Source: Tragulus kanchil
Taxonomy: Eukaryota > Chordata > Mammalia > Artiodactyla > Tragulidae
Assembly (NCBI GenBank): GCA_022376925.1
Contig: JAIOJX010000004.1
Span: 6,200,001-6,264,000, forward strand
Direction of reading: 5' to 3'
Length of the DNA stretch: 64,000 nucleotides
The first letter of the stretch is position 1. Each line of letters begins with the position of its first letter. Of this stretch, positions 121 to 64,000 are shown one piece after another. A model generated the notes under the pieces. The model had not been told where the DNA came from. It did not search any database and saw nothing but the letters and a program-made list of their open reading frames with translations. The position numbers were made by a program, and so were the translations under genes.

Positions 121-317
121 GGTGCATGTGTGCTCAGTTGCTCAGTCGTGTCTGACTCTGCGACACATGGACTGTAGCCTGCCAGGCTCCCCCCTGGAAT
201 TTTCCCCATGAGTTGCCATTTCCTATTTCAGGAGATCTTCCCAACCCAGGGATCAAACCTGAATCTCCTGCATTGACAGATGGATTCTTTACCACACAGC
301 TACCTAGGAAGCCCTCA
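121..317 (-). mobile_element. Bov-tA-type SINE
   Basis: Read on the minus strand this is a tRNA-like head (near 317, GGGCTTCCT-like) followed by a body ending in a GACTGAGC-like motif near 126. The plus strand shows the usual reverse features: a CAGTCGTGTCTGACTC-like block, ATGGACTGTAGCC and a GGATCAAACC degenerate B box. The family is tRNA-headed with a body derived from the BovB LINE and is mobilised in trans. The element is diverged and shows no clean target-site duplication. Its tRNA-head end is the left border of the first tandem duplication. Confidence 0.85.
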
Positions 318-2556
318 GGTCGCTTCCCACGCAAATACCTGGGAGAAGAACCTCTGAGTAGAGAGAGAATCTCATGCAAAAGTTCTGGAAGTTTGTCCAG
401 TGTGTTCAATGGCCAGTGGGATTAGAAGTTGTGTGAGCAGAGAAAATGCGAGGAGGAAAAGTAGTCTATGAGAGCAGAGGGGTGGAGAGAAAGGTGAAGA
501 CAGTGTCTGGTAGAGAAAGGCAAAGACAGAAGATAAAAGAACTTCATATTTATGATGCAAGGGAAACAGCATAGGTGGTCATTTTGGAAAATAAAATTCA
601 TCCTGAGTTGTAACAACAAAGTCTTCTTGCTTGACCTCTTGGAACCTAGCAGACTCTGAAGAAAGAAGAAACAGGTAATTCAGAGTCACGATCTATTAAG
701 CCAGTGCCATGCCTAAAATTTCTAATTTCCGTAAAGAACCAGGCATGATCCTGGAAGCCCTAGACATATAAGGCACTTCTATCTATTTTGATCAAGGATC
801 ACAGATCTCTCTTTATCTTTTTTTCCCTCCTTTCATCTCCCCTTTTCTCCCTCTGTCTGCTCCCTCCCTCCCTTCCTTCAGCTTTATTGGATTTTTTGTA
901 TTATGACGGTAATGGACATTTATTTTTATCATATCAAACAATTCAGAGGTGCATGAAGGAAGCATTAATAATCTTCCTCTTTAACCACCTCATCCCCAGA
1001 TAACCCATGCTAATAGTGCAGTCTGTACTTTTTTACATTTTTAAAAAATGCTCCTCAATTATATGAATTTCTCCCCTTTTTTCTAAAATAATAAAACTAA
1101 AACTCTCTATATTATTTGCTTTTATGACCTAAAATATATCAGAGAAAATGCTCTAGGTCAGGATATAAATCTAACTCAAATAATAATAGCTTCATAATAT
1201 TTCATCGTATGGATGCATACCATAAATTTATGTGGCCAGTCCACTACTGAGCAACATTCAAATAATTTTCAAATTTACTCTTCTTTCCCTTTCCTCTGTC
1301 CCTTCCTGTACCAACTGAACTGCAATAAATACCTGCATACATAATCTCTTTCATACAGATGCTTATATTTTACAGGTTTGAGTTCCAGATTATAGGATTT
1401 TTAGGACAAAGAGAGCATAAATACAATACCTTGATTAATAGGAAGCCCTCAGGTCGCTTCCCACGCAAATACCTGGGAGAAGAACCTCTGAGTAGAGAGA
1501 GAATCTCATGCAAAAGTTCTGGAAGTTTGTCCAGTGTGTTCAATGGCCAGTGGGATTAGAAGTTGTGTGAGCAGAGAAAATGCGAGGAGGAAAAGTAGTC
1601 TATGAGAGCAGAGGGGTGGAGAGAAAGGTGAAGACAGTGTCTGGTAGAGAAAGGCAAAGACAGAAGATAAAAGAACTTCATATTTATGATGCAAGGGAAA
1701 CAGCATAGGTGGTCATTTTGGAAAATAAAATTCATCCTGAGTTGTAACAACAAAGTCTTCTTGCTTGACCTCTTGGAACCTAGCAGACTCTGAAGAAAGA
1801 AGAAACAGGTAATTCAGAGTCACGATCTATTAAGTCAGTGCCATGCCTAAAATTTCTAATTTCCGTAAAGAACCAGGCATGATCCTGGAAGCCCTAGACA
1901 TATAAGGCACTTCTATCTATTTTGATCAAGGATCACAGATCTCTCTTTATCTTTTTTTCCCTCCTTTCATCTCCCCTTTTCTCCCTCTGTCTGCTCCCTC
2001 CCTCCCTTCCTTCAGCTTTATTGGATTTTTTGTATTATGACGGTAATGGACATTTATTTTTATCATATCAAACAATTCAGAGGTGCATGAAGGAAGCATT
2101 AATAATCTTCCTCTTTAACCACCTCATCCCCAGATAACCCATGCTAATAGTGCAGTCTGTACTTTTTTACATTTTTAAAAAATGCTCCTCAATTATATAA
2201 ATTTCTCCCCTTTTTTCTAAAATAATAAAACTAAAACTCTCTATATTATTTGCTTTTATGACCTAAAATATATCAGAGAAAATGCTCTAGGTCAGGATAT
2301 AAATCTAACTCAAATAATAATAGCTTCATAATATTTCATCGTATGGATGCATACCATAAATTTATGTGGCCAGTCCACTACTGAGCAACATTCAAATAAT
2401 TTTCAAATTTACTCTTCTTTCCCTTTCCTCTGTCCCTTCCTGTACCAACTGAACTGCAATAAATACCTGCATACATAATCTCTTTCATACAGATGCTTAT
2501 ATTTTACAGGTTTGAGTTCCAGATTATAGGATTTTTAGGACAAAGAGAGCATAAAT
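305..2556. repeat. Tandem duplication D1 (two 1118-bp copies)
   Basis: Copies at 305-1422 and 1439-2556, offset 1134. I saw only two substitutions (C701/T1835, G1065/A2199). The 16-bp filler 1423-1438 (ACAATACCTTGATTAA) resembles the true right flank after 2556 with about 8 bp deleted (ACAATAGCTTG at 2573). This looks like an error-prone contig end more than a biological junction. Confidence 0.9.
780..1420 (-). mobile_element. Degenerate old L1-like remnant (copy at 1914-2554)
   Basis: AT-rich sequence with a polypyrimidine tract (about 815-880). Blocks such as ATATTTCATCGTATGGATGC and a diverged 'accagtcc...gaacatt...' motif resemble the 3' end of ancient mammalian L1M elements in antisense. 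No open frame is preserved. Family assignment is by eye and weak; it could be another old interspersed repeat. Confidence 0.4.
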
Positions 2557-2589
2557 TTTAATCTACAATAGCTTGTTTTGTCTCTTTTA

Positions 2590-5035: not shown

Positions 5036-5694
5036 GTGGTTTTCAAAGCATAGTTAAATGGCCACGGACTCCAAACTTTTAAAAATAAAGCATCCCTCCC
5101 AGAAAACAGAGCATTGTTTTATGCCAGCATTATAGTTCCTCCAGGACCGACCAAATGTTCTGATGAATGTGAAAGTCCCCTTTGCAGACTGGGAGACACC
5201 AATTTCCATTGTCTGATTACCTCAAAAAATTGTTTTGTAGAAACTTTTTGTATCAGTCACAGTTGTTTTTAGTTTTAAACAACAATCTACCTGATCCTTA
5301 ACCTAATGATGTTTAAGCAATAAAGCTATTCGACAGCCTAACTTCCTAAAATGGGAAGATGTTCAGAGGTATTTGGAGTTCAGGGTTCTTGCAGGCCATG
5401 AGTGACCTAGACTTTTAGTTTTTGCGCCCTTCCCCCCTGCAGCCCTGCCCCCACCACTGTGCTGCCTTGGTGCCTCCTGGACATGGGGTGTGTGCTACAG
5501 TCCCAGGCATCTCTTATCTGCCCAAAGCAGAAAAAGGGACAGGAGGCACTAACCACACTTTTCCTTTTTGTTAAGAAGCACAGTGTTCACAGCGTTCCTG
5601 GAAGTTCCCAGCAAACGTCTCCTAATATCTTATTGGTAGAACTGCTCGTATCTACAACCATACCTGACTACAAGGGAGTCAGAGACCAGGACTG

Positions 5695-5835
5695 ACATGG
5701 CTGGTTGTGTCCAAGTGATTCTCTAAGAGAGTCCTTCAGACCCATAGCATCACCATCACCTGGGAACTTGCTAGTCAAGCAAATCCTTGTGTCTACCCTA
5801 GACCTATTGAATCAGAACCCTTAGAATAGGGACAG
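5695..5835 (-). mobile_element. MER5A-like hAT remnant, left part (copy 6853-6993; other part 9590-9640)
   Basis: Contains CATCACCATCACCTGGGAAC, then ATTGAATCAGAACCC, as in the nonautonomous hAT element MER5A. The element is split by an L1: the missing terminal part reappears after the L1 as AATTCTGATACGCTC and TTTTGAGAACCACTGG (9595-9630). The L1 therefore inserted into a pre-existing MER5A. Strand is approximate. Confidence 0.65.
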
Positions 5836-5872
5836 TGGTGTGTGTGTGTGTCTGTGTATATGGGTGTGTGTT
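5836..5872. repeat. TG-rich microsatellite (copy 6994-7030)
   Basis: Interrupted (TG)n with a TATATGGG break, at the 3' (left) edge of the minus-strand L1 where its poly-A tail would be. It may have grown from the degraded tail. Confidence 0.75.
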
Positions 5873-7374
5873 ATTGAAATATGATTGATTTATGGTAACA
5901 TATTAGTTTCAGGTGTACAACATAGTGATTTGCTATTTTTATAGGTTATACTCCATGTAAAGTATTATATAATGTTGGCTGTGTTTCTCTGTGGCATGCA
6001 GTATACATTGTTATTTAGTGACTTTAGAGTACTTTGCGTCTCTTAATCCCCTACCCCTATTTTGCCCCTCCTCATTCCCTCCTCACTGGTAATCACTACC
6101 TTGTTCTCTATATCTGAGAGATTCTATTTTGTTATATTGAGTCATTCGTTTGATTTTTTAAGATTCCACATAGATGTGATAACATAGAGGATTTGCCTTT
6201 CTGTGTCTGACTTACTGCACTAAGTCAAATGTCTGTTAGATCTACTTACTGTTATTGCAGATGGCAAAATCTCCCTTTTTGTGTGGCTGAGTAATACTCC
6301 GCGGTGTGTGTGTTTTCTTTCTACCACAGGTTCTTATCCATTCTTCTGTCAATGGGCATTTAAGTTGCTTCCGTGTTTTAGCTATTTTGAATCGTGCTGT
6401 AATGAGCATTAGGATGCATGTATCTTTTTGCTTTCATTTCTTTCAGATATATACCCAGGCATGGAATTGTTGGGCCAGATGATAGTACAGTTTTTGGGTT
6501 TAGAATAATCTCCATACTGTTCTCCATAGTAGTGGTACCAATTTACATTTCCACCAACAGTGTAGGAGGTTTCCTTTTAGTTTGCGCCTTCCCCCTGCAG
6601 CCCTGCCCCCACCACTGTGCTGCCTTGGTGCCTCCTGGACATGGGGTGTGTGCTACAGTCCCAGGCATCTCTTATCTGCCCAAAGCAGAAAAAGGGACAG
6701 GAGGCACTAACCACACTTTTCCTTTTTGTTAAGAAGCACAGTGTTCACAGCGTTCCTGGAAGTTCCCAGCAAACGTCTCCTAATATCTTATTGGTAGAAC
6801 TGCTCGTATCTACAACCATACCTGACTACAAGGGAGTCAGAGACCAGGACTGACATGGCTGGTTGTGTCCAAGTGATTCTCTAAGAGAGTCCTTCAGACC
6901 CATAGCATCACCATCACCTGGGAACTTGCTAGTCAAGCAAATCCTTGTGTCTACCCTAGACCTATTGAATCAGAACCCTTAGAATAGGGACAGTGGTGTG
7001 TGTGTGTGTCTGTGTATATGGGTGTGTGTTATTGAAATATGATTGATTTATGGTAACATATTAGTTTCAGGTGTACAACATAGTGATTTGCTATTTTTAT
7101 AGGTTATACTCCATGTAAAGTATTATATAATGTTGGCTGTGTTTCTCTGTGGCATGCAGTATACATTGTTATTTAGTGACTTTAGAGTACTTTGCGTCTC
7201 TTAATCCCCTCCCCCTATTTTGCCCCTCCTCATTCCCTCCTCACTGGTAATCACTACCTTGTTCTCTATATCTGAGAGATTCTATTTTGTTATATTGAGT
7301 CATTCGTTTGATTTTTTAAGATTCCACATAGATGTGATAACATAGAGGATTTGCCTTTCTGTGTCTGACTTACT

Positions 7375-9531
7375 GCACTAAGTCAAATGTCTGTTAGATC
7401 TACTTACTGTTATTGCAGATGGCAAAATCTCCCTTTTTGTGTGGCTGAGTAATACTCCGCGGTGTGTGTGTTTTCTTTCTACCACAGGTTCTTATCCATT
7501 CTTCTGTCAATGGGCATTTAAGTTGCTTCCGTGTTTTGGCTATTTTGAATCGTGCTGTAATGAGCATTAGGATGCATGTATCTTTTTGCTTTCATTTCTT
7601 TCAGATATATACCCAGGCATGGAATTGTTGGGCCAGATGATAGTACAGTTTTTGGGTTTAGAATAATCTCCATACTGTTCTCCATAGTAGTGGTACCAAT
7701 TTACATTTCCACCAACAGTGTAGGAGGTTTCCTTTTCTCCACATCCACTCCAGTATTTGTTATTTGTGTTCTCTTTCATGATAGCCATTCTTTAAAGTAT
7801 GAGGGGGTATTTTATTGTGGTTTTGATGGTTAGCGATGTTGAACATTTTTTCATGTGTATGTTAGCCAATTGTGTATCTTCTTTAGAAAAGTGTCTATTA
7901 GGTATTCTACCCATTTTAAAATTGTTTTTTTTTTTTTTTTTAGTGATATGAAATTGTATTAGCTGGTTGTTTATTTTGGATATTAACCCCTTGTTAGAAC
8001 CTTGTCTCACACCATATACAAAAATAAACTCAAAATGAATTAAAGGCATAAATGTAAAACTGGAAATCATGAAACTCCTAGGAGGGAACCATAGACAGGG
8101 TACTCTTTAAGTTGTAGCAACATTTTTGTGTAGGCTTCCTTAGTGGCTTAGTGGTAAAGAATCTGCCTGCAATGCAGGAGACGTGAAGTCAGTCCCTGGG
8201 TTGGGAATATCCCCTGGAGGAGGGCATGGCAACTGATGCCAGCCTTCTGTCTGGAGAACCCCATGGACAGAGGAGCCTGGTGGGCTACAGTCCATGGGGT
8301 CGCAAAGAGTTGGACACAACTGAAGTGACTGAACATCAATGTTATTTTGGATTCATACCCTCAGGTAAAGAAAAAAAAAAAAGTCAGACCTAACCAGCAA
8401 AGGAAGCTATCAACAAGATGAAAAGAAAATTCACTGAATATTGATGCAAAATGTCCCTTTTGTGTGACTGCACTAAGTCAAATGTCTGTTAGATCTACTT
8501 ACTGTTATTGCAGATGGCAAAATCTCCCTTTTTGTGTGGCTGAGTAATACTCCGCGGTGTGTGTGTTTTCTTTCTACCACAGGTTCTTATCCATTCTTCT
8601 GTCAATGGGCATTTAAGTTGCTTCCGTGTTTTGGCTATTTTGAATCGTGCTGTAATGAGCATTAGGATGCATGTATCTTTTTGCTTTCATTTCTTTCAGA
8701 TATATACCCAGGCATGGAATTGTTGGGCCAGATGATAGTACAGTTTTTGGGTTTAGAATAATCTCCATACTGTTCTCCATAGTAGTGGTACCAATTTACA
8801 TTTCCACCAACAGTGTAGGAGGTTTCCTTTTCTCCACATCCACTCCAGTATTTGTTATTTGTGTTCTCTTTCATGATAGCCATTCTTTAAAGTATGAGGG
8901 GGTATTTTATTGTGGTTTTGATGGTTAGCGATGTTGAACATTTTTTCATGTGTATGTTAGCCAATTGTGTATCTTCTTTAGAAAAGTGTCTATTAGGTAT
9001 TCTACCCATTTTAAAATTGATTTTTTTTTTTTAGTGATATGAAATTGTATTAGCTGGTTGTTTATTTTGGATATTAACCCCTTGTTAGAACCTTGTCTCA
9101 CACCATATACAAAAATAAACTCAAAATGAATTAAAGGCATAAATGTAAAACTGGAAATCATGAAACTCCTAGGAGGGAACCATAGACAGGGTACTCTTTA
9201 AGTTGTAGCAACATTTTTGTGTAGGCTTCCTTAGTGGCTTAGTGGTAAAGAATCTGCCTGCAATGCAGGAGACGTGAAGTCAGTCCCTGGGTTGGGAATA
9301 TCCCCTGGAGGAGGGCATGGCAACTGATGCCAGCCTTCCTGTCTGGAGAACCCCATGGACAGAGGAGCTTGGTGGGCTACAGTCCATGGGGTCGCAAAGA
9401 GTTGGACACAACTGAAGTGACTGAACATCAATGTTATTTTGGATTCATACCCTCAGGTAAAGAAAAAAAAAAAAGTCAGACCTAACCAGCAAAGGAAGCT
9501 ATCAACAAGATGAAAAGAAAATTCACTGAAT
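7375..9531. repeat. Tandem duplication D3 (about 1065 bp)
   Basis: Copies at 7375-8439 and 8470-9531, offset about 1095. The 30-bp filler 8440-8469 begins ATTGATGCAAAATGTCCC. Differences are mainly a shorter T run (7925 versus 9019) and CCTTCTG versus CCTTCCTG in the SINE. The left edge GCACTAAGTCAAATG also occurs at 6217, so this sequence is present three times. Confidence 0.9.
8131..8341 (+). mobile_element. Bov-tA-type SINE inside L1 (copies 9224-9432 and 10316-10525)
   Basis: Sense orientation: a tRNA head (GCTTCCTTAGTGGCTTAGTG, GTAAAGAATCTGCCTGCAAT), a degenerate B box (AAGTCAGTCCC) and a BovB-derived body (CATGGACAGAGGAGCC, GTCGCAAAGAGTTGGACACA). It appears three times because D3 and D4 overlap across it. 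The third copy follows AAAACAGCTT from unrelated unique DNA, not L1, so that junction is artificial relative to the insertion. Confidence 0.9.
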
Positions 9532-11402
9532 GGGAAAAAATATTTGCAAAGGATATGTTCAATAAGAGATTTGTATTTAATAAAGTATCTGGGTAATTCT
9601 GATACGCTCAGTTTTGAGAACCACTGGCTTGGATCAATTATCTGTCATCCATGACCGGGTTTGTGGTTGCCCTGAACAGAACTGAGATTCCCTCTGTAAC
9701 ATGAAATTCAGGGATGTATATTGATCAGGCATCTATGTCTAACAGGGATATTAACCTTTGACTGTTGTATATATTATAGACAGGGTGGATTATTATTAAT
9801 GTTAAAAAATTGCATTGAGCATCCTTAGGCTTAAGAACTGGTGCTTTGTGTCTATTTGCTCTGTGATCTTGGGCACATACCCTGAGTCTGTTTCCTGCTC
9901 TTTGAAAGGGAGATATCCTTGCAGGGTTCCTGCAAATATCATTTAATACAGTGGATAAAGAAGGACCCTGAAAACCATAAGGCTTCATGTGCTGCCTGTT
10001 CCCACGTGTGTGCGGACTGTCTCTCTGCTTCTTAAGCATCTTGTTCAGCTTTCTTGGCTTGGTCCAGACACAGTCCCTGAGCAATGCTAATAGGAACCCT
10101 GTAGGCACAGCATACCAGGTTCCATCAACAAAGTCCAGATCTCCTGCTTGCTTGAGGCAGGGAGTAATATCTAGGGGAGAGGGTTCGAACAGGAGAGAGA
10201 ACTCACCGTGCCAGGAGAGTCAATGTTTTATTTTTGCTTTGACTATTCTTCCCTCAGCTTCTTACATGAGTTTCCTGAAGTTAACAACCCGGGGCCTTTC
10301 AAAACAGCTTTGTGTAGGCTTCCTTAGTGGCTTAGTGGTAAAGAATCTGCCTGCAATGCAGGAGACGTGAAGTCAGTCCCTGGGTTGGGAATATCCCCTG
10401 GAGGAGGGCATGGCAACTGATGCCAGCCTTCTGTCTGGAGAACCCCATGGACAGAGGAGCCTGGTGGGCTACAGTCCATGGGGTCGCAAAGAGTTGGACA
10501 CAACTGAAGTGACTGAACATCAATGTTATTTTGGATTCATACCCTCAGGTAAAGAAAAAAAAAAAAGTCAGACCTAACCAGCAAAGGAAGCTATCAACAA
10601 GATGAAAAGAAAATTCACTGAATGGGAAAAAATATTTGCAAAGGATATGTTCAATAAGAGATTTGTATTTAATAAAGTATCTGGGTAATTCTGATACGCT
10701 CAGTTTTGAGAACCACTGGCTTGGATCAATTATCTGTCATCCATGACCGGGTTTGTGGTTGCCCTGAACAGAACTGAGATTCCCTCTGTAACATGAAATT
10801 CAGGGATGTATATTGATCAGGCATCTATGTCTAACAGGGATATTAACCTTTGACTGTTGTATATATTATAGACAGGGTGGATTATTATTAATGTTAAAAA
10901 ATTGCATTGAGCATCCTTAGGCTTAAGAACTGGTGCTTTGTGTCTATTTGCTCTGTGATCTTGGGCACATACCCTGAGTCTGTTTCCTGCTCTTTGAAAG
11001 GGAGATATCCTTGCAGGGTTCCTGCAAATATCATTTAATACAGTGGATAAAGAAGGACCCTGAAAACCATAAGGCTTCATGTGCTGCCTGTTCCCACGTG
11101 TGTGCGGACTGTCTCTCTGCTTCTTAAGCATCTTGTTCAGCTTTCTTGGCTTGGTCCAGACACAGTCCCTGAGCAATGCTAATAGGAACCCTGTAGGCAC
11201 AGCATACCAGGTTCCATCAACAAAGTCCAGATCTCCTGCTTGCTTGAGGCAGGGAGTAATATCTAGGGGAGAGGGTTCGAACGGGAGAGAGAACTCACCG
11301 TGCCAGGAGAGTCAATGTTTTATTTTTGCTTTGACTATTCTTCCCTCAGCTTCTTACATGAGTTTCCTGAAGTTAACAACCCGGGGCCTTTCAAAACAGC
11401 TT
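9218..11402. repeat. Tandem duplication D4 (about 1092 bp)
   Basis: Copies at 9218-10310 and 10311-11402, head to tail with no filler. One substitution seen (GAACAGGAG at 10187 versus GAACGGGAG). The unit starts at a SINE edge and ends in unique sequence (CTTTCAAAACAGCTT). Confidence 0.92.
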
Positions 11403-13849: not shown

Positions 13850-14345
13850 GATTGGCTTAGGGTGGAAATTCTTAGAGTGTAGTCTGGGGACACTTTGACA
13901 TGGGGAGTCAAAACTGTTTTCTTTATTTGCCTTTTTCACTCATTCCCTTATGAATGTACAGTTGAATTTTCCACAGGCAATATGGCTTATGATGTTGCAA
14001 CAGACTGAATAAAGAAGCAGATATGAATCCAGCTGTCTTCTATTAAGCCAGACATTGAAGAGATTTGCAAAAAAGTGAAACAGTCCCATGCTTGCGAGTG
14101 TTTTTGTTTGTGCACGCTTTGGGAAATGTAGTTACTTTTCATGAAAATAAATTATTTTTGTTCATGGGCTTATTGTTCAGTTGTATTTCAATAAATAATT
14201 CTTTTTAGTTCTCAATTTGAATTTCTCATTCAGTACAGTTGATAGATATAACCTACATAAACTAAGCTCTTTCAGATCTTCGATGATTTCAGAGAGTGTA
14301 AAGGAGTCCTGGGATCAAAAATCCTGTGGTCTGGTATTATGTGAA
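13850..14345. mobile_element. hAT-Charlie-like DNA transposon remnant (copy 15063-15424)
   Basis: Segments such as CAACAGACTGAATAAAGAAG, CAGATATGAATCCAGCTGTC and CCAGACATTGAAGAGATTTG, then GAGTGTAAAGGAGTCCTGGG, match my recollection of a Charlie-group hAT 3' region. The left part (TAGTCTGGGGACACTTTGAC) looks like an eroded terminal area. No transposase frame is preserved. Family name is from memory of the consensus and should be checked. Confidence 0.5.
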
Positions 14346-16115: not shown

Positions 16116-16405
16116 CTCTAGTCTTTCCCATTCTATTATTTCCTCTATTTCTTTGCATTGTTCACTGAGGAAGGCTTTACTATCTCTCCTTGCTCTTCCC
16201 TGGAACTCTGCACTCAGTTGGGTGTATCTTTCCCTTTCTCTTTTGCCTTTTGCTTCTCTTATTTTCTCAATTATTTGTAAGGCCCCCTCAGACAACAATT
16301 TTGCCTTTTTTGCATTTCTTTTTCTTGGGGATGGTTTTGATCTCTTGTCTCCTGTATAGTATTATGAACCTCTGTCCATAGTTCTTTAGGACCTCTGTCT
16401 ATAGG
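14510..16405 (-). mobile_element. BovB (RTE) LINE internal fragment
   Basis: Minus-strand translation gives BovB ORF2 sequence between endonuclease and reverse transcriptase. From upstream to downstream it contains REAKGKRERERYTQL, MGTIKDRNSMDLAEAED, NHDGVITHLEPDTL and SVFIPIPKKSNAKECSN. Both ends are missing: no 3' tail on the left and no endonuclease on the right. D6 duplicates the left part and D7 the right part. True length is about 0.8 kb. Confidence 0.88.
15634..16298 (-). pseudogene. BovB ORF2 fragment (linker to early RT domain)
   Basis: BovB ORF2 encodes an endonuclease-reverse transcriptase of roughly a thousand residues that retrotransposes by target-primed reverse transcription and also mobilises Bov SINEs. 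Here two overlapping minus frames (16056-16298, then 15634-16158) together cover an uncharacterised linker and the first RT motifs (TTNKASGGDGIPVE, then a PIPKK motif). A frameshift near 16090-16150 separates them. The catalytic Asp-Asp motif lies beyond the truncated end. A second copy of the left part is at 14556-14990. Automated annotation often mislabels such frames as a craniofacial development protein-like gene; this is transposon debris. Confidence 0.85.
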
Positions 16406-48530: not shown

Positions 48531-48761
48531 TTTGGAGATAAATACAAGGTCCTGAGGGAGAGAACTTCTCAGATTGGAGGAACTGGAAAGGTGTCTGTGA
48601 GGAAGGGACTTTTATCTGGGGATTTTATGGATAAGTACGAGTTCATTTGGTGCACAGTTTGGATCTGCTGATTGTGTATGTGGGTGCTTCCAGGAAGAAT
48701 AAGTAAGGGGGACTAATGCTGACCTGGATCTGAGGGGCTAGAAGGAAGGGATGTGGCTTTC

Positions 48762-50903: not shown

Positions 50904-51109
50904 TTTGGAGGATGAGTAGGGTTTATTTTTTTGAAGATGAGAAGGTAGTCAACCATTTTGGATATTTTCCTTTGTATTATAAAAGCTACACTTGATCTCT
51001 TCAGAAAATTTAGAAAAAGTCAGTAAATGAAAAGAAGAAAAATAAAAATTCCACTGTGAAGCCACCAGCTGAGATAACTACTTATCATGAACTCGCATAA
51101 TTTTAAAAG

Positions 51110-52121: not shown

Positions 52122-52860
52122 ATTTAATTTTTTTATTGAAGTATGGTTAATTTACAATGTTATGTGAAATTTTTGGTTAGCAAAGTGACTGTTATACATA
52201 TTATTTTTTATATTCTTTTCCAATGTGGTTTATCCATGGATCTTGAACACAGTTCCCTGTGTTATACAAGTAGGACTTTGTTGTCCATCCAATCTATATG
52301 TAATAGTTCGTATCTACTAACCTCAAACTTCTAGTCCATCCCCACCCCACCCTCCACTTACTTTGTTAGCCACAAGTCTGTTCTCTATGTCTGAACATCT
52401 GTTTCTGCTTTGTAGATAGGTTCATTTGTGCCACATTTTAGATTTTGTATGTAAGTGGTGTAATGTGGTATTTGTCTCTTTCTGACTTCACTCAGTATGA
52501 TAATCTCTAGTTGCATCGATGTGGCTAGAAATGACATTATTTCATTCTTTTTTACGGCTGTGTAGTATTTCATTGTATGTATATGTACCACATTTCCTTT
52601 ATCTGTTTATCTGTTGATAAGCACTTAGATTGTTTCCTCATCTTGGCTATTGTGAATAGTGCTGCTTTGAACATAGGGACACGTGTATCTTTTTTTTGAA
52701 TTGTAGCTTTGTCTATTTATATACAGGAGTGGGATCATATGGCATGAATATTTAGAGTTTTCTGAGGAACCTCCATATTGTTTTCCATAGTGGCTACAAC
52801 AACTGAACATTCCTTCCAACTGTGTAAGAGGATTCTTCTCTAACATATTATTTTTTTAAA
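52122..52860 (-). mobile_element. L1 3' end and ORF2 C-terminal remnant (right part copied at 53567-53998)
   Basis: TTTTTTTATTGAAGTATGG and TTACAATGTTATGTG mark the L1 3' end at the left. Minus frames at 52625-52846 (YGKQYGG... after a Cys-rich relic) and 52385-52591 (MVHIHTMKYYTAVKKNEIMS) are ORF2 C-terminal relics. The YYxAVKKNE motif is diagnostic of L1 ORF2. Truncated and dead. Confidence 0.85.
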
Positions 52861-54702
52861 TGCCATTTAAGAAAATGAGACATTTTAATTGGTATTGTAC
52901 TACATTCTTAGGTTATGAATGGGTAGGTTTTTAATAGGCAGTGGAAAAGGAGAGACCCTTTCATGCAGTTGGTGTGAAACAGTAAAGGAGTGATGATGTT
53001 AAAGGCTTAAAGCTAGCCACTGTCAGTCTAGTTCTGGCCCACAGAAGCATGTTGTTTGTCTATAGCATGTTTGAAAAATTATTATTACTATTTACATCAG
53101 ATCATCAGGGGATTTCATATGGATATCTGCTTTGCTGAGTTCTCATCATTCAGAAGTTCTGGCAAGCCTGAACCAGGCTTCAATCTGGAACAAGACTGTT
53201 TTTCCAGATTGATTGAAATATAATTGACATAGCACATAGTATCAGTTTAAGGTGTGCAGTGTGTTGATATATTTGTAAATAGTAATCATTTTGCAAATGA
53301 TTACCACCATAGCATTAGTTGATACCTGTATCATGACAAATAACTACCATTTCATTTTTCCAGTGAGCATATTTAAGGCTGATTCTCCTAGCAGTTTTCA
53401 AGTATGTAATAGAGTGTTATTAACTATAATCATTATAATGGTATATTTGGTCCCCAGACCTTATCTATATTATTACTGATAGTTTGTCCTCTTTGACCAG
53501 TGTTTCTCCCTTTTACCTGCTCCCAGTCCTGGTAACCACCATTCTCATCTCTGTGTCTGTAACTCATTTTGTGCCACATTTTAGATTTTGTATGTAAGTG
53601 GTGTAATGTGGTATTTGTCTCTTTCTGACTTCACTCAGTATGATAATCTCTAGTTGCATCGATGTGGCTAGAAATGACATTATTTCATTCTTTTTTACGG
53701 CTGTGTAGTATTTCATTGTATGTATATGTACCACATTTCCTTTATCTGTTTATCTGTTGATAAGCACTTAGATTGTTTCCTCATCTTGGCTATTGTGAAT
53801 AGTGCTGCTTTGAACATAGGGACACGTGTATCTTTTTGAATTGTAGCTTTGTCTATTTATATACAGGAGTGGGATCATATGGCATGAATATTTAGAGTTT
53901 TCTGAGGAACCTCCATATTGTTTTCCATAGTGGCTACAACAACTGAACATTCCTTCCAACTGTGTAAGAGGATTCTTCTCTAACATATTATTTTTTTAAA
54001 TGCCATTTAAGAAAATGAGACATTTTAATTGGTATTGTACTACATTCTTAGGTTATGAATGGGTAGGTTTTTAATAGGCAGTGGAAAAGGAGAGACCCTT
54101 TCATGCAGTTGGTGTGAAACAGTAAAGGAGTGATGATGTTAAAGGCTTAAAGCTAGCCACTGTCAGTCTAGTTCTGGCCCACAGAAGCATGTTGTTTGTC
54201 TATAGCATGTTTGAAAAATTATTATTACTATTTACATCAGATCATCAGGGGATTTCATATGGATATCTGCTTTGCTGAGTTCTCATCATTCAGAAGTTCT
54301 GGCAAGCCTGAACCAGGCTTCAATCTGGAACAAGACTGTTTTTCCAGATTGATTGAAATATAATTGACATAGCACATAGTATCAGTTTAAGGTGTGCAGT
54401 GTGTTGATATATTTGTAAATAGTAATCATTTTGCAAATGATTACCACCATAGCATTAGTTGATACCTGTATCATGACAAATAACTACCATTTCATTTTTC
54501 CAGTGAGCATATTTAAGGCTGATTCTCCTAGCAGTTTTCAAGTATGTAATAGAGTGTTATTAACTATAATCATTATAATGGTATATTTGGTCCCCAGACC
54601 TTATCTATATTATTACTGATAGTTTGTCCTCTTTGACCAGTGTTTCTCCCTTTTACCTGCTCCCAGTCCTGGTAACCACCATTCTCATCTCTGTGTCTGT
54701 AA
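52424..54702. repeat. Tandem duplication D20 (about 1137 bp)
   Basis: Copies at 52424-53562 and 53567-54702, offset 1140-1143; join CTGTAACTCATTTTGTGCC. The second copy lacks three T (CTTTTTTTTGAATT versus CTTTTTGAATT). It spans the end of one L1 remnant, 330 bp of unique DNA and the start of the next L1. Confidence 0.92.
52861..53195. other. Unique DNA between two L1 remnants (copy 54002-54335)
   Basis: No feature recognised. It contains no open frame of note. Confidence 0.5.
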
Positions 54703-55824: not shown

Positions 55825-56675
55825 TGTTTTGATTGTTGTTGTTGTCCAGTCACTAAGTCATGTCTGACTCTTTATGACCCCATGGACTGCAGCATGCCAG
55901 GCTTCCCTGTTCTCTGCTATCTCCCAGAGTTTGCTCAAGTCCATATCCATTGAGTCCATAATGCTATGTAACCATCTCATCCTCTGCTGTCCTTTTCTCC
56001 TTTTGCCTTCAGTCTTTCCCAGCATCAGAATCTTTTCCAATGAATCAGTTCTTTGTATCAGGTAGCCAAAGTATTGGAGCTTCAGCTTCAGCATCAATCC
56101 TCCCAATGAATATTCAGGGTTGATTTCTTTTGGATTGACTGATTTGGTCTCCTTGCAGTTCAAGGAACTCTCAAGAATCTTCTTCAGCACCATAATTCAG
56201 AAGCATCAGTTCTTTGGCACTCAGCCTTCTCAGTGCTCAGTCCAACTCTCACATCCATATATGACCACTGGAAAAACCATAGGTCTGACTATACTCTCCT
56301 TTGTTGGCAAAGTGATGTCTTTGCTTTTTAATATGCTGTTTAGGTTTATAATAGCTTTTCTCTCAAGAAGCAAGTGTCTTCTAATTTCATGACTGCAGTC
56401 ACCATCTGCAATGGTTTTACAGCTCAGGAAAAGATAATCTGTCACTCCTATGTTTTTCCCTTCTATTTTCCATGAAGTTGATGGGACCAACTGCCATGAT
56501 GTCAGTTTTTTTGAATGTTGAGTTTTAAGCTAATTTTTTCACTTTCCTCTTTCACCCTCATCAAAGGGATCCTAGTTTCTCTTCACTTTCTGTCTTTAGA
56601 GAGGTATCATCTGTCTATCTGAGGTTATCGGTATTTCTCTTGGCAATCTTAATTCCAGTTTGTGATTGTTTTGAT
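55825..56675 (-). mobile_element. BovB 3' fragment inserted in L1-C, 9-bp TSD (copy 57035-57821)
   Basis: TGTTTTGAT at 55825-55833 and 56667-56675 bounds an 833-bp, 5'-truncated BovB. It starts at the left with the GTTGTTGTTG tail and ends within ORF2. Removing it restores the L1 order CCATAC-TGTTTTGAT-GACTAC. Only a 5'-truncated RTE copy; the second copy lacks the first 54 bp because D21 starts at 55888. Confidence 0.88.
55858..56490 (-). pseudogene. BovB ORF2 C-terminal region
   Basis: Minus frames 56230-56490 (SCKTIADGDCSHEIRRHLLL, NSILKSKDITLPTKESIVRP, VIYGCESWTEH) and 55858-56193 (MVLKKILESSLNCKETKSVN, GGLMLKLKLQYFGYLIQRTD, MDSMDMDLSKLWEIAENREA) are consecutive parts of the BovB C terminus. 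A frame break at 56194-56230 separates them. Confidence 0.9.
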
Positions 56676-58172
56676 GACTACAACTTCTTTTTTTCTTTTC
56701 CCCATTGGGCCTCTTTTATTTTTATATTTATTTTCATCTATCTTTTTATTATTTGGCCTGTGTGGACCTCCCACTGCAGTGACCTCTCTTGTTGCAGAGC
56801 ACCAGCTCTAGGCACATGCGCTCTAGAGTGCTGCCTCATAATTGGACACACTGGTCCAGCCCCTCTTTGGCACGTGGGATCTTCCCGGGCCAGGGATCAA
56901 ACGGGTGCCCCTTGCACTGTAAGGTAGACTCTATACCCACTGGACCACCAGGAAAGCCCTGACTACAGTTTTTAATAGAGTTTGAAATCAAGGATTGTGC
57001 TGGCTCCAACTTTGTCCCTTTTCAAGGGGGGGATTGCAGCATGCCAGGCTTCCCTGTCCTCTGCTATCTCCCAGAGTTTGCTCAAGTCCATATCCATTGA
57101 GTCCATAATGCTATGTAACCATCTCATCCTCTGCTGTCCTTTTCTCCTTTTGCCTTCAGTCTTTCCCAGCATCAGAATCTTTTCCAATGAATCAGTTCTT
57201 TGTATCAGGTAGCCAAAGTATTGGAGCTTCAGCTTCAGCATCAATCCTCCCAATGAATATTCAGGGTTGATTTCTTTTGGATTGACTGATTTGGTCTCCT
57301 TGCAGTTCAAGGAACTCTCAAGAATCTTCTTCAGCACCATAATTCAGAAGCATCAGTTCTTTGGCACTCAGCCTTCTCAGTGCTCAGTCCAACTCTCACA
57401 TCCATATATGACCACTGGAAAACCATAGGTCTGACTATACTCTCCTTTGTTGGCAAAGTGATGTCTTTGCTTTTTAATATGCTGTTTAGGTTTATAATAG
57501 CTTTTCTCTCAAGAAGCAAGTGTCTTCTAATTTCATGACTGCAGTCACCATCTGCAATGGTTTTACAGCTCAGGAAAAGATAATCTGTCACTCCTATGTT
57601 TTTCCCTTCTATTTTCCATGAAGTTGATGGGACCAACTGCCATGATGTCAGTTTTTTTGAATGTTGAGTTTTAAGCTAATTTTTTCACTTTCCTCTTTCA
57701 CCCTCATCAAAGGGATCCTAGTTTCTCTTCACTTTCTGTCTTTAGAGAGGTATCATCTGTCTATCTGAGGTTATCGGTATTTCTCTTGGCAATCTTAATT
57801 CCAGTTTGTGATTGTTTTGATGACTACAACTTCTTTTTTTCTTTTCCCCATTGGGCCTCTTTTATTTTTATATTTATTTTCATCTATCTTTTTATTATTT
57901 GGCCTGTGTGGACCTCCCACTGCAGTGACCTCTCTTGTTGCAGAGCACCAGCTCTAGGCACATGCGCTCTAGAGTGCTGCCTCATAATTGGACACACTGG
58001 TCCAGCCCCTCTTTGGCACGTGGGATCTTCCCGGGCCAGGGATCAAACGGGTGCCCCTTGCACTGTAAGGTAGACTCTATACCCACTGGACCACCAGGAA
58101 AGCCCTGACTACAGTTTTTAATAGAGTTTGAAATCAAGGATTGTGCTGGCTCCAACTTTGTCCCTTTTCAAG
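55888..58172. repeat. Tandem duplication D21 (about 1138 bp)
   Basis: Copies at 55888-57026 and 57035-58172, offset 1146-1147; 8-bp G-rich filler GGGGGGAT. One base is lost in copy 2 (GGAAAAACC versus GGAAAACC). The unit holds BovB, a SINE and L1-C flank. Confidence 0.93.
56676..56967 (-). mobile_element. CHR-like SINE, intermediate age, 7-bp TSD (copy 57822-58113)
   Basis: GACTACA occurs at 56676-56682 and 56961-56967 around a minus-strand element (about 56683-56960). Head GGGCTTTCCTGGTGGTCCAG, B box GTTTGATCCC-like, CACGTG retained, palindrome decayed to GGCACATGCGCTC. The C-rich tail is short. It inserted in L1-C sequence next to the BovB TSD. Confidence 0.85.
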
Positions 58173-59214
58173 ATTTCTTTGATTGTACAGGGTCTTTTGC
58201 AGTTACATACATATTTCAGGAAGGATTTTTTTTTCTTTCTGTGAAACATACCATTGGAATTTTGACAAGGATTACACTGAATCTGTGGATTGCTTTGAGA
58301 AGTATGCACATTTAAATTATATCAATTCTAATCAATGTGCATGAAATGTCTTTTCATTTATTTATGTCTTTTTTACTTTCTTTTTTTTTTTAAATATTTA
58401 TTTATTTATTTTTGGGGGGGCGGGTTGGGGAGGGAAGGGGTGGGCGGGCCACTTTTATTGGTCTTTCATTTGTCTATTTTCATCCGTCTTTGTTCTTTGG
58501 CTCTTGTCGGCCTCCCATCGCGGTGGCCTCTGTTGTCGCAGAGCACCGGCTCTGGGCGCATGCGCTCCTGAGCTCCGGCTCGGTAATTGGACACATCGGT
58601 CCAGCCGCTCCATGGCACGTGGGATCTTCCTGGGCCAGGGATCAAACGGGTGCCCCTTGCACTGTAAGGTAGACTCTATACCCACTGGACCACCAGGAAA
58701 GCCCTGACTACAGTTTTTAATAGAGTTTGAAATCAAGGATTGTGCTGGCTCCAACTTTGTCCCTTTTCAAGATTTCTTTGATTGTACAGGGTCTTTTGCA
58801 GTTACATACATATTTCAGGAAGGATTTTTTTTTCTTTCTGTGAAACATACCATTGGAATTTTGACAAGGATTACACTGAATCTGTGGATTGCTTTGAGAA
58901 GTATGCACATTTAAATTATATCAATTCTAATCAATGTGCATGAAATGTCTTTTCATTTATTTATGTCTTTTTTACTTTCTTTTTTTTTTTAAAATATTTA
59001 TTTATTTATTTTTGGGGGGGCGGGTTGGGGAGGGAAGGGGTGGGCGGGCCACTTTTATTGGTCTTTCATTTGTCTATTTTCATCCGTCTTTGTTCTTTGG
59101 CTCTTGTCGGCCTCCCATCGCGGTGGCCTCTGTTGTCGCAGAGCACCGGCTCTGGGCGCATGCGCTCCTGAGCTCCGGCTCAGTAATTGGACACATCGGT
59201 CCAGCCGCTCCGCG
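58015..59214. repeat. Tandem duplication D22 (about 600 bp), SINE-to-SINE
   Basis: Copies at about 58015-58613 and 58616-59214, offset 601. Both borders lie at the same place (GGCACGTGGGATC) inside two similarly oriented CHR-like SINEs. The unit is the distance between those two SINEs. This is the only pair here with clear SINE homology at both breakpoints. It is also much shorter than the others. Confidence 0.9.
58366..58700 (-). mobile_element. Hybrid CHR-like SINE (young left part, older right part)
   Basis: From 58366 to about 58613 the sequence equals the young SINE at 58966-59214 (same left TSD, G-rich tail, GCGCATGCGC at 58556-58565). From about 58616 onward it equals the older SINE head at 58017-58106 (TCAAACGGGTGCCCCTTGCA, GTAAGGTAGACTC) and its flank GACTACA. 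Target-site duplications do not match across it. This is the product expected from unequal exchange, or mis-joining, between the two SINEs. Confidence 0.9.
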
Positions 59215-59321
59215 GCACGTGGGATCCTCCCAGGCCAGGGATCGAACCGGCGCCCCTTGCACTGCAAGGCGGTGTCCTTACCCACTGGACCACCAGGGAA
59301 GCCCTCTTTTTTACTTTCTTT
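58966..59321 (-). mobile_element. CHR-like SINE with GC-rich tail, youngest-looking, 17-bp TSD
   Basis: TCTTTTTTACTTTCTTT at 58966-58982 and 59305-59321 is a perfect TSD, giving an element of about 322 bp (58983-59304). On minus: head GGGCTTCCCTGGTGGTCCAG, A-box region, exact B box GGTTCGATCCC, CACGTG (59216-59221), TCCGCGG-type CpGs, GCGCATGCGC (59156-59165), CCAAT motif, C-rich tail and AAATA repeat with poly-A. With nearly all CpGs intact this is the best family reference in the window. Confidence 0.92.
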
Positions 59322-61243
59322 CATCAATGTCTTATGGCTTTCAGTGTATGGATATCTGACATCTTTCATTAAATTTAGTCCTATAAACTTTATTCATTTC
59401 AGTGTTATTGTAAGTGGGTTTTTTTCTAAACTGTTTTTGATGATTTGTTCTTAGTATGTAGAAATGCAGCTGGTTTATATATATTGAGTTTGTATCCTGC
59501 AACTTTACTGAAATTGTTTATTAGCTGCAACATTTTGGTGAAGTTTTTAGGAGCTTCTATAGACAATACTATGTTATCTACAAATAGAGGCACTTTTATT
59601 TCTTCCTTTCCAATTCGGATGCCATTTATTTCTTTTCCTTGCCTAGTTGCTCTACCTACCATTCCCAGGAATCTGTTGAATGAAAGTGGGAAGAGTGGGC
59701 ATCCAGTTCTGTCCTTTTCTAAGAAGAAAAGCTTTCAGTTTTTCACTGTGTATAATAAATGTTATTAATAGCTTGGTCTTGTCATATATCACATTTATTG
59801 TGTTGAGGTACACGTACTCTATAACCAATTTGTTCAGAGTTTTTATTATAAAAGGATGTTGAGTTTTGTCAAGCAATTTTTCTGTATTATGATCATGTAT
59901 AATTATTATCTTTTATTTTGTTGCTGTGGTATATCACATTTATTGACTTGTGAGTGTTGAGCCATCCTTGTGTCACTGGAATAAATCTCACTTGACCATG
60001 TTGTGTACTCCTTTTAATGTACTGTTGAAATCAGTTTGCTAATAGTTTCTTGAGGATTTTTACATATATGTCCATTGAGGATTGTTGTTGTTCAATCACT
60101 AAGTCATGTCCAATTCTTTGCAACCCCATGGACCATAGACCTCTAGGATCCTCTGTCCTTGGGGTTTTCCAGGGAAGAACATTGGAGTGTGTTTCCTTTT
60201 CCAGGATATCAGGGATTGAGCTCACATCTCCTGCATTGGCAGGCAGATTCTTTACCACTGAGCCACTGGGAAGCCCTCTTTTTACTTTCTTTCATCAATT
60301 TTCTTTCAGTGTATGGATATCTGACATCTTTCATTAAATTTAGTCCTATAAACTTTATTCATTTCAGTGTTATTGTAAGTGGGTTTTTTTCTAAACTGTT
60401 TTTGATGATTTGTTCTTAGTATGTAGAAATGCAGCTGGTTTATATATATTGAGTTTGTATCCTGCAACTTTACTGAAATTGTTTATTAGCTGCAACATTT
60501 TGGTGAAGTTTTTAGGAGCTTCTATAGACAATACTATGTTATCTACAAATAGAGGCACTTTTATTTCTTCCTTTCCAATTCGGATGCCATTTATTTCTTT
60601 TCCTTGCCTAGTTGCTCTACCTACCATTCCCAGGAATCTGTTGAATGAAAGTGGGAAGAGTGGGCATCCAGTTCTGTCCTTTTCTAAGAAGAAAAGCTTT
60701 CAGTTTTTCACTGTGTATAATAAATGTTATTAATAGCTTGGTCTTGTCATATATCACATTTATTGTGTTGAGGTACACGTACTCTATAACCAATTTGTTC
60801 AGAGTTTTTATTATAAAAGGATGTTGAGTTTTGTCAAGCAATTTTTCTGTATTATGATCATGTATAATTATTATCTTTTATTTTGTTGCTGTGGTATATC
60901 ACATTTATTGACTTGTGAGTGTTGAGCCATCCTTGTGTCACTGGAATAAATCTCACTTGACCATGTTGTGTACTCCTTTTAATGTACTGTTGAAATCAGT
61001 TTGCTAATAGTTTCTTGAGGATTTTTACATATATGTCCATTGAGGATTGTTGTTGTTCAATCACTAAGTCATGTCCAATTCTTTGCAACCCCATGGACCA
61101 TAGACCTCTAGGATCCTCTGTCCTTGGGGTTTTCCAGGGAAGAACATTGGAGTGTGTTTCCTTTTCCAGGATATCAGGGATTGAGCTCACATCTCCTGCA
61201 TTGGCAGGCAGATTCTTTACCACTGAGCCACTGGGGAAGCCCT
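59295..61243. repeat. Tandem duplication D23 (about 965 bp)
   Basis: Copies at about 59295-60276 and 60266-61243, offset 965. The join lies in GGGAAGCCCTC, which is the shared tRNA-head end of the CHR-like SINE (59295) and the Bov-tA SINE (60267). Copy 2 lacks about 9 bp at its start (CATCAATTTTCTTTCAG versus CATCAATGTCTTATGGCTTTCAG). Confidence 0.9.
60076..60277 (-). mobile_element. Bov-tA-type SINE in L1-C (copies 61041-61243 and 62139-62340)
   Basis: Left: GTTGTTGTTCAATCACTAAG and ACCCCATGGACCATAGACC. Right: CTCCTGCATTGGCAGGCAGA, then TTTACCACTGAGCCACTGGG. Complete minus-strand Bov-tA with tRNA head at the right. Three copies because D23 and D24 overlap on it. Copies differ only by GGGGAAGCCC versus GGGAAGCCC and a few bases near the left end. 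Confidence 0.9.
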
Positions 61244-63110
61244 CACTGGGGATATTGACCTGTAATTTCTGTTTTTCATAGTGCTCTTTTTTGGTTTTGG
61301 TATCATAGTAATACTGGCCTTGAAAATTGTGTTTGGAAGTGTTCTATGTTTTTAGAAGAGTTGGAGAAGGATTGATAATTAGTCTTTAATATTTGACTAA
61401 ATTTACTATTGAAGCCATCTGGCCCTATGCTTTGATTTTTGGGGAGTTTTTAAAATTAATGATCCAGTCTTCTTACTGTTATTTGTCTATTCAGATTTTC
61501 TATTTCTTCATGGTTCTGTCTTGGTAGATTGTATGTTTATAGGAATTTATCTATGTTTTCTTTGTTGTCAAATTTGTTGGCATATAATCATTCATAGTTG
61601 TCTCATGATTTTGTATTTTTATTGATCAGTTACAATATATCCTCTTTTCTGGTTTTACTTATTTGAGTCATCATTCTGGGAAGCCATAAAGGTTTGTCTG
61701 TTTTGTTTATTTTTCAAAAAAATCAGCTCTCAGTTTCACTGACCTTTTCTATTGTCTTCTTAGTCTGTCTTTCATTTGTTTCCCCTCTTGATCTTTCTAA
61801 TTTCCTTCCTTTTTCTAACTTTTGGCTTACTGTGTTTTTTACTCCTTGAGGTGTAGAGTTAGGTATTAGCTGGGCCTTGATTGACTGGATAGGATGTTTC
61901 TACCCCTGTTAGGGGAGAAATGTTCTAGTTTGCCTCAGGTCTCATCACTCTAAGGTTTCTAAAGGCCAACAGTCATCAAAGAAATGCCTGGTATATTGTT
62001 TTACTTACTCCCATGACCCTCAGCGAATCCTTGTGTCACTGGAATCAATCTCACTTGACCATGTTGTGTACTCCTTTTAATGTACTGTTGAAATCAGTTT
62101 GCTAATCGTTTCTTGAGGATTTTTCCATATATGTCCATTGAGGATTGTTGTTGTTCAATCACTAAGTCATGTCCAATTCTTTGCAACCCCATGGACCATA
62201 GACCTCTAGGATCCTCTGTCCTTGGGGTTTTCCAGGGAAGAACATTGGAGTGTGTTTCCTTTTCCAGGATATCAGGGATTGAGCTCACATCTCCTGCATT
62301 GGCAGGCAGATTCTTTACCACTGAGCCACTGGGAAGCCCTCACTGGGGATATTGACCTGTAATTTCTGTTTTCATAGTGCTCTTTTTTGGTTTTGGTATC
62401 ATAGTAATACTGGCCTTGAAAATTGTGTTTGGAAGTGTTCTATGTTTTTAGAAGAGTTGGAGAAGGATTGATAATTAGTCTTTAATATTTGACTAAATTT
62501 ACTATTGAAGCCATCTGGCCCTATGCTTTGATTTTTGGGGAGTTTTTAAAATTAATGATCCAGTCTTCTTACTGTTATTTGTCTATTCAGATTTTCTATT
62601 TCTTCATGGTTCTGTCTTGGTAGATTGTATGTTTATAGGAATTTATCTATGTTTTCTTTGTTGTCAAATTTGTTGGCATATAATCATTCATAGTTGTCTC
62701 ATGATTTTGTATTTTTATTGATCAGTTACAATATATCCTCTTTTCTGGTTTTACTTATTTGAGTCATCATTCTGGGAAGCCATAAAGGTTTGTCTGTTTT
62801 GTTTATTTTTCAAAAAAATCAGCTCTCAGTTTCACTGACCTTTTCTATTGTCTTCTTAGTCTGTCTTTCATTTGTTTCCCCTCTTGATCTTTCTAATTTC
62901 CTTCCTTTTTCTAACTTTTGGCTTACTGTGTTTTTTACTCCTTGAGGTGTAGAGTTAGGTATTAGCTGGGCCTTGATTGACTGGATAGGATGTTTCTACC
63001 CCTGTTAGGGGAGAAATGTTCTAGTTTGCCTCAGGTCTCATCACTCTATGGTTTTTCTAAAGGCCAACAGTCATCAAAGAAATGCCTGGTATATTGTTTT
63101 ACTTACTCCC
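60930..63110. repeat. Tandem duplication D24 (about 1082 bp)
   Basis: Copies at 60930-62012 and 62028-63110, offset 1098. Filler ATGACCCTCAGCGAA (62013-62027) partly resembles the true right flank AGATGAC. Differences: GAATAAATC versus GAATCAATC, AATAGTTTC versus AATCGTTTC, CTCTAAGGTTTC versus CTCTATGGTTTTTC. Confidence 0.92.
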
Positions 63111-64000
63111 AGATGACTTTTTTCCATCAGTTTTTTGGCTGGTATCTTAGGCATCTGAATATGAACCCTGTGGCTTAGAGTTTGCATGGGGAATAGTTCC
63201 TTTTGGTTGGAGGATAGAAAACATGAAGGCGGGTAGTGGGGAAGAAAACTGGAAAGGCAGCTTATGACAGAGAAAGGGAGAGTCCTGAAACCAGCCATCA
63301 CATCTAGACTTTATTTTTTAGGCATAAGGATGCTACTGAGGAACCTGAAGCTCTTAACTGACATCCTAGCCTCCTGTCCTAGAACAGCTTCCGCCTGTTC
63401 ATTTAAATGTTCTTTCCTTTTGCTGCATTTTCTCTTTGCTATCTCTGTTCCCAACGGGGAGTGTTTTCAAAAGGCTAGACAGCTGTTTACATCTCCTTTT
63501 AAATGGAGGCATTGTGGCTCTTCCCTCCCTCTAAGGACATCTTGTAAATTGCTCTCTCATTGTGAGAAGAGCAGCCCTTGCTTCTCTGTCTGTTCCACCT
63601 CCCTGGGTGGAGGCTGGGGCAAGTAGAACAGAAGCACTTCACTCCATTGGTGTCCTCCTTGATTTGCCGGGATTTGTGGAAAAAACAGAAAGGCCTTTGT
63701 TAGCTGTTGTCAAGCAGTTCCTGGTTGAAATCCATTTGCGAAGTGATCAACTTGCAGAAAATCTTTGTGTATTCCTGGGTGTGGTCTTTGGATGTAGCCT
63801 GAATGTGATGAGACAAGTGCTGGTATGGAATCTTCTAGTCTTGGCTGCGTAGTCCATGAGCTCTGTGTCTCTGTTTTGCCCCCCTTTTAAATTTTGGGGG
63901 ATGAGGGACAAAAGTTTTCTTTTTTATTTCTAGCTCTCATTTGTTTCCCTTTTTTTGATCTTTCTAATTTCCTTCCTTTTTCTAACTTTTGGCTTACTGT
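62868..64000. repeat. Start of a further duplication D25, cut by the window edge
   Basis: 63937-64000 repeats 62868-62929 (TCATTTGTTTCCC, then TTTCTAATTTCCTTCCTTTT) at offset about 1070, with two extra T in the second copy. The rest of the copy lies beyond the window, so the staircase continues to the right. Confidence 0.88.
63111..63936. other. Single-copy unique DNA, no gene called
   Basis: No repeat family is recognised. Plus frames at 63264-63626 (120 codons) and 63562-63852 (96 codons) are open. The second contains PGFVEKTERPLLAVVKQFLV, which looks protein-like, but I know no family and see no supporting splice or promoter signals. A coding exon cannot be excluded from sequence alone. 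Confidence 0.45.

Follow-up and report, generated by a model that had tools for sequence, protein, structure and literature searches.

In the fuzzy-Bruijn-graph assembler wtdbg2 (Redbean), consensus is made stretch by stretch between common nodes, and a node overlap limit of 256 bp places node starts ~768 bp or more apart. The available portions of two papers describe 1024-bp segments that serve as vertices (PMC10989838) and bins of 256 bp (PMC11831799). Under the term homotype false duplication, the Vertebrate Genomes Project describes under-collapsed sequence that appears twice in an assembly, as set out in the accessible part of PMC9516828. The window considered here, a stretch of 64,000 nt from Tragulus kanchil (JAIOJX010000004.1, 6,200,001-6,264,000), carries a staircase of tandem pairs that is most likely not a real genomic feature and that is compared below with both systems.

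Tandem pairs in the window and across the assembly

Self-BLAST and a recount identified 25 tandem junctions in the window, in agreement with the 24-25 consecutive units proposed in a first-pass annotation. The offsets between copies span 974-1168 bp at 24 of the 25 junctions and equal 600 bp at the remaining one (965-1168 bp and 601 bp had been claimed), and they sum to 27,061 bp, close to the earlier figure of ~26 kb. Adjacent units have up to 375 bp in common, as judged from secondary self-BLAST matches at offsets of 2,063-2,288 (~5-370 bp had been described previously). Identity between copies ranges from 97.8 to 99.8%, with the 600-bp pair an outlier at 93.9%, and the length and identity of the copies exclude a chance origin. 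The window contains zero N letters, and a search at gathering scores gave no match to Rfam families in it. The pairs are as follows (span: first copy and second copy, offset in bp, identity):

305..2556: 305-1422 and 1439-2556, offset 1134, 99.8%
5412..7736: 5412-6578 and 6574-7736, offset 1162, 99.5%
7372..9531: 7372-8439 and 8467-9531, offset 1095, 99.3%; 365 bp in common with unit 5412..7736
9210..11402: 9210-10310 and 10303-11402, offset 1093, 99.5%
11338..13497: 11338-12418 and 12414-13497, offset 1076, 99.6%
13983..16115: 13983-15036 and 15063-16115, offset 1080, 99.7%
16101..18421: 16101-17249 and 17264-18421, offset 1163, 98.4%
18362..20581: 18362-19464 and 19479-20581, offset 1117, 99.4%
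20474..22591: 20474-21538 and 21528-22591, offset 1054, 98.6%
23113..25259: 23113-24180 and 24188-25259, offset 1075, 99.3%
24933..27137: 24933-26029 and 26041-27137, offset 1108, 99.6%
26797..28971: 26797-27873 and 27895-28971, offset 1098, 99.5%
29695..31927: 29695-30795 and 30834-31927, offset 1139, 97.8%
35158..37493: 35158-36326 and 36326-37493, offset 1168, 99.8%
39971..42191: 39971-41075 and 41089-42191, offset 1118, 99.4%
41817..43974: 41817-42884 and 42914-43974, offset 1097, 98.7%
43767..45930: 43767-44831 and 44867-45930, offset 1100, 99.7%; a SINE inside each copy
45609..47778: 45609-46697 and 46691-47778, offset 1082, 99.7%
48756..50904: 48756-49834 and 49828-50904, offset 1072, 99.7%
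52422..54702: 52422-53562 and 53564-54702, offset 1142, 99.65%
55884..58172: 55884-57026 and 57031-58172, offset 1147, 99.7%
57875..59305: 57875-58474 and 58475-59074, offset 600; exceptional pair with a chimeric SINE
59275..61244: 59275-60278 and 60249-61244, offset 974, 98.6%
60929..63111: 60929-62013 and 62027-63111, offset 1098, 99.3%
From 62865: 62865-63875 and 63934-64946, offset 1069, 99.4%; the second copy ends 946 bp beyond the window end

The pattern extends beyond this locus. Tandem units are carried by all 23 separate 10-kb stretches examined, which were placed at round coordinates on 14 of the 16 large chromosome-scale contigs, the window's contig included, and which constitute a sample of the genome. 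With pairs defined by an offset of 500-1400, a length of at least 200 bp and at least 90% identity, 93 of 94 offsets from these stretches and an 84-kb region around the window fall within 950-1250 (median 1110, interquartile range 1093-1131), and extra copies make up 31% of the bases in the 23 stretches. Single exons are also doubled, at 5 of 13 RPB2-family sites (leaving out one apparent doubling that consists of two overlapping rows 164 bp apart) and at 4 of 11 DNA-polymerase-B sites. N-runs, which are not necessarily gaps, are present in stretches L009, L015 and L030; the L030 unit split by such a run was merged in the final recount and stands as two entries in the list of 86 complete units. 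This list, taken from an earlier count, is the basis of the spacing, difference-position and three-copy analyses.

Unit spacing and the position of differences

In collapsed coordinates, successive units start ~1.6 kb apart on average, and short spacings are scarce: only 2 of 70 lie below 680 bp, a threshold chosen post hoc, where ~24 would be expected under an exponential distribution, and one of these two (228) arises where stretch L009 begins inside a unit. The counts are 22 spacings in 680-860, 0 in 861-937 and 12 in 938-1100, forming clusters, with limits likewise set after inspection of the data, that have means of 761 (SD 64) and 1029; about half of the 761 cluster lies below 768. The cluster analysis and that of a 256-bp comb were made without the two lowest spacings (-475 and 228). 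The comb signal itself is faint, with R at 0.28-0.32 and P at about 0.004-0.14 depending on range and null, and periods other than 256 bp score higher in all five ranges tested. The largest sequences common to adjacent units, 394 bp in stretch L016 and 441 bp in L019, exceed the sum of one 256-bp bin and the unit excess (about 341).

Over 91,339 columns, 190 substitutions and 168 indels separate the two copies of the units, a divergence of ~0.4%. These differences are concentrated at unit ends, with successive tenths of the unit containing 112, 25, 16, 15, 21, 22, 21, 15, 31 and 80 of them in 83 of the 86 units, a set that excludes both fragments of the L030 unit and the 600-bp pair. In 81 simulated pairs with uniform divergence the profile is flat, and the even spread expected of real tandem duplication is thus absent from the observed pairs. 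This control covers the two-copy profile. In the 25 regions where overlapping units yield three copies, the odd columns number 50 in the first copy, 15 in the middle copy and 100 in the third, and in 2 regions it is the middle copy that departs most from the others. Within the first copy, 35 of the 50 fall in the last fifth, at the 3' end, while 75 of the 100 in the third copy fall in its first fifth, at the 5' start, although 4 of the 25 regions supply 65 of those 100. Errors thus lie where they are expected for separately made consensus blocks, at the outer ends.

Origin of the staircase

Units of near-constant length in every stretch sampled, a floor to their spacing and frayed outer ends are all signs of an artefact. 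Because the pattern recurs throughout the sample and has the look of overlapping blocks laid down unmerged, it is, judging from the sequence, almost certainly an assembly artefact of some kind and not biology. The explanation that is probably correct is that of unmerged overlaps between adjacent consensus blocks in a wtdbg2-type assembly. Such an assembler would lay a contig as a chain of ~1-kb nodes and build a separate consensus for each stretch, node to node; neighbouring stretches should then merge across their common node, and many common nodes may instead have been kept on either side, which would give each of them a second copy in tandem. That wtdbg2/Redbean was the assembler used, and that blocks went unmerged at its consensus stage, is our inference. 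The spacing clusters at 761 and 1029 and the scarcity below 680 would fit 1024-bp nodes made of 256-bp bins. The first-pass annotation had likewise proposed unmerged overlaps, and that part of its account stands; its placing of them between contigs, or in gap-fill flanks, was rejected, as the window is free of N, units start ~1.6 kb apart and 14 contigs are affected, and overlapping blocks inside contigs are the better fit.

Some observations weigh against wtdbg2 in particular. The units are ~85 bp longer than 1024 bp, an excess that is explained loosely, and the genome, once collapsed, would measure ~2.2 Gb, somewhat small by ruminant standards. Human wtdbg2 assemblies of 2.73 and 2.77 Gb in one benchmark table, in the part of PMC11831799 available, are not inflated, and therefore a run-specific failure must be assumed here. 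Literature searches returned no published account of this failure among the matches listed, and the available portions of a wtdbg2 dog assembly paper (PMC8228171), a modified-wtdbg2 paper (PMC12037172) and a ruminant chromosome paper (PMC11628655) do not mention a pattern of this kind. The evidence for an artefact names no program, and unmerged overlaps from another assembler, a polisher or an in-house pipeline would accord with the unit length, the weak comb and the benchmark sizes; this origin is nonetheless rather unlikely, given that ~1-kb units and a spacing floor near three quarters of 1024 fit wtdbg2 bins, and polishing chunks of fixed step are disfavoured by the irregular spacing.

Readings in which the copies are genuine sequence fare far worse. 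Divergence at the level seen between copies would be plausible as heterozygosity if each copy represented one parental allele, yet such heterotype false duplication predicts two copies with differences spread along them, and the observed end-loaded differences, the three copies where units overlap, the near-constant unit length and the 6 of 86 pairs that are 100% identical make it very improbable. Most improbable of all is an unknown replication-linked process that produces real tandem duplications of near-constant 1.1 kb over ~31% of the genome's length, a possibility that the first-pass annotation had raised. Besides the tandem structure itself, copy ends overlap by at least 3 bp at 26 of 86 junctions and by at least 5 bp at 21, against 6.6% and 0.9% of random joins, as microhomology repair would give, although this comparison is uneven, with observed ends taken from BLAST extension and control ends from exact matches. 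Real duplication would have to double ~31% of the sampled bases together with single polymerase exons, and it is not supported by the near-constant length, the spacing floor, the end-loaded differences, the three-copy regions, the recount across the sampled stretches or the unmatched letters between copies at 51 of 86 junctions (two of which represent one N-run split).

The 600-bp pair is a separate case. Its SINE at 58414-58704 is chimeric, with a start that matches the SINE at 59014-59304 and an end that matches the SINE piece starting at 57875. Non-allelic homologous recombination between SINEs leaves a chimeric SINE of this kind, but beyond that piece the copies are the same apart from a single A within a run, and the pair lies amid artefactual units. 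For these reasons a false join between two similar SINEs ~600 bp apart is likelier than a real SINE event, and it probably accounts for the exception.

Consequences and comparison with known systems

If the preferred reading of unmerged consensus blocks is true and the sample is typical, ~1 Gb of the 3.17-Gb assembly would be redundant duplicate sequence. Work based on it would then yield wrong gene models and exon counts, wrong figures for genome size and repeat content, and wrong surveys of copy number and tandem duplication, and automatic scans would go on reporting false 'duplications'; a flag on the assembly record and reassembly are called for.

With its ~1-kb nodes and 256-bp bins (available portions of PMC10989838 and PMC11831799), wtdbg2, which makes consensus between common nodes, is a candidate counterpart for the staircase; the two part in that wtdbg2 merging normally works, according to the latter source, and in that the median unit offset, while close to the 1024-bp node, is longer. 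As in homotype false duplication, the second copy would be under-collapsed sequence and not the other haplotype; that class of error is, in the accessible part of PMC9516828, ascribed to accumulated read errors and detected by depth and k-mers, whereas the units described here, seen in the assembly sequence, are tandem, near-constant in length and present in all stretches sampled.

The tandem staircase in the window and across the assembly

Self-BLAST and a recount bore out the staircase described in the first-pass annotation, with coordinates and sizes that proved nearly correct. The window contains 25 tandem junctions, at which the offset from copy 1 to copy 2 is 974–1168 bp in 24 cases and 600 bp in one, for a total of 27,061 bp; the two copies of each unit are 97.8–99.8% identical, or 93.9% in the 600-bp case.

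The window corresponds to C3:6200001–6264000 of the assembly (3.167 Gb), which comprises 32 contigs, 16 of which exceed 70 Mb, the next largest being 10.7 Mb. Sampling covered 25 stretches, each 10 kb long, at selected positions that are mostly round numbers; two of these flank the window and were merged with it into one 84-kb stretch, while the remaining 23 lie on 14 contigs, and units were found in all 23. Counting only pairs at offsets of 500–1400 bp, the sample and window region hold 94 junctions (9 truncated by a stretch end), and 93 have an offset of 950–1250 bp (median 1110, IQR 1093–1131). The share of bases that are extra copies is 30.6% for the 23 separate stretches (bootstrap 26.6–34.3%, range 10.7–44.6%) and 40.2% for the 84-kb region; taken at face value, the sampled share extrapolates to a collapsed assembly of ~2.2 Gb. 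Runs of N of 62–446 bases occur in three sampled stretches (L009, L015, and L030), and L030 has two 446-base runs 1119 bp apart, which suggests that the N stretch itself is doubled as well.

Differences between copies and spacing of units

Across 91,339 columns from 83 of 86 complete units, the copies differ by 190 substitutions, 97 homopolymer indels, and 71 other indels. Differences per tenth of the unit number 112, 25, 16, 15, 21, 22, 21, 15, 31, and 80, whereas uniformly distributed differences simulated in 81 pairs and run through the same BLAST step, a control that covers this two-copy histogram, gave a flat profile (40, 39, 36, 30, 38, 35, 32, 39, 35, and 43). Where two units overlap, three copies are present (25 regions, 6,905 columns), and the columns with one odd letter number 50 for the first copy, 15 for the middle copy, and 100 for the third, with all three copies differing in 3; these columns are not independent events, as 65 of the 100 third-copy columns come from four regions. 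First-copy odd columns concentrate in the final fifth of a region (35 of 50) and third-copy ones in the first fifth (75 of 100); three regions are free of differences, and two have their odd letters mostly in the middle copy. The picture is one of consensus blocks built separately, frayed at their ends, and placed end to end.

In collapsed coordinates (extra copies removed), start-to-start spacing is at least 680 bp in 68 of 70 cases, the exceptions being 610 bp and, at a stretch end, 228 bp; an exponential distribution would place ~24 below this limit which, like the clusters that follow, was chosen post hoc on data already inspected. Spacings number 22 at 680–860 bp, none at 861–937 bp, and 12 at 938–1100 bp, and the first two clusters average 761 bp (n = 23, counting the spacing of 610 bp) and 1029 bp (n = 12), close to three and four 256-bp bins of the long-read assembler wtdbg2 (Redbean). 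By formal test, the 256-bp periodicity is only suggestive (R 0.28–0.32, P ~0.004–0.14 depending on range and null, with another period scoring higher in all five ranges). Copy ends overlap by at least 3 bp at 26 of 86 junctions against 6.6% of random joins, a comparison not relied on here because the control is uneven, the observed ends being products of BLAST extension; unmatched letters lie between the copies at 51 of the 86.

Repeats and doubled exons

Reading frames in the window resemble BovB and BovA/Bov-tA repeats, and its SINE is presumably tRNA-derived. The genome is probably that of a ruminant, and a set of 16 large contigs would suit mouse-deer, among other species. A Pfam search assigned no family to the BovB-like frame, and an Rfam search of the window gave no match. 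Two L1-like stretches, 82–87% identical and ~8–13 kb apart, lie on the minus strand within 18227–35299, the first, which is the one scanned for domains, supplying the domain-bearing frames listed here. The SINE copies reach ~290–340 bp, with mutual similarity of ~76–91%.

20917–25296, minus strand, L1-like frames with reverse transcriptase and endonuclease domains
4208–4526, SINE copy
16649–16876, SINE copy
37591–37847, SINE copy
44458–44750, SINE copy
58414–58704, SINE copy
59014–59304, SINE copy

The plus strand of the window (1–64000) has a strong A/T skew (T 22,590, A 15,632), possibly reflecting a predominance of minus-strand repeats. By eye, paired SINE matches ~1.1 kb apart also occur on other contigs.

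The 600-bp case (57875–59305) involves a middle SINE whose start resembles the downstream SINE and whose end resembles the upstream one; beyond the SINE piece the copies differ by one A within a run. A false overlap join between two SINEs explains this arrangement; for this case only, genuine SINE–SINE recombination, which would look alike, is a less likely alternative.

Pfam profile matches, counted over genes and pseudogenes together, repeat at 1.07–1.19 kb in 5 of 13 sites for the RNA polymerase second subunit and in 4 of 11 for B-family DNA polymerase, one site of the latter being threefold. It is difficult to see how genes of such polymerase-type families could function with single exons doubled. 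Similar pairs are present among myosin and COX1 matches. COX1-like stretches with internal TGA codons occur on contigs C6, C26, C27, C5, and others; since all 40 COX1 matches listed are in large contigs, these stretches may represent mitochondrial DNA copied into the nucleus.

Origin of the staircase

The staircase is most likely non-biological. The first-pass annotation had proposed unmerged overlaps between contigs, an account that is right in kind and extends to every sampled stretch, but the overlaps seem to lie within contigs. The wtdbg2 consensus program handles each node-to-node stretch by itself and joins adjacent stretches across the node they have in common; a 256-bp overlap of nodes is permitted by default. 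According to two papers, reads are cut into 1024-bp segments that serve as vertices (PMC10989838) and 256-bp bins are used in a tiling arrangement (PMC11831799). Were the merge over a shared node to fail, tandem copies about one node long would be left, with errors at block ends, as is observed.

The artefact status is much firmer than the identity of the program. Literature searches found no published account of such a merge failure, which does not in itself show that there is none. Against wtdbg2, the mean unit is ~85 bp longer than 1024 bp, and the largest shared stretches, 394 bp (L016) and 441 bp (L019), exceed the limit of the simple model. Human wtdbg2 assemblies, moreover, measure 2.73 and 2.77 Gb in a benchmark table of one paper (PMC11831799), and a merge failure would therefore be a fault of one run rather than normal wtdbg2 behaviour.
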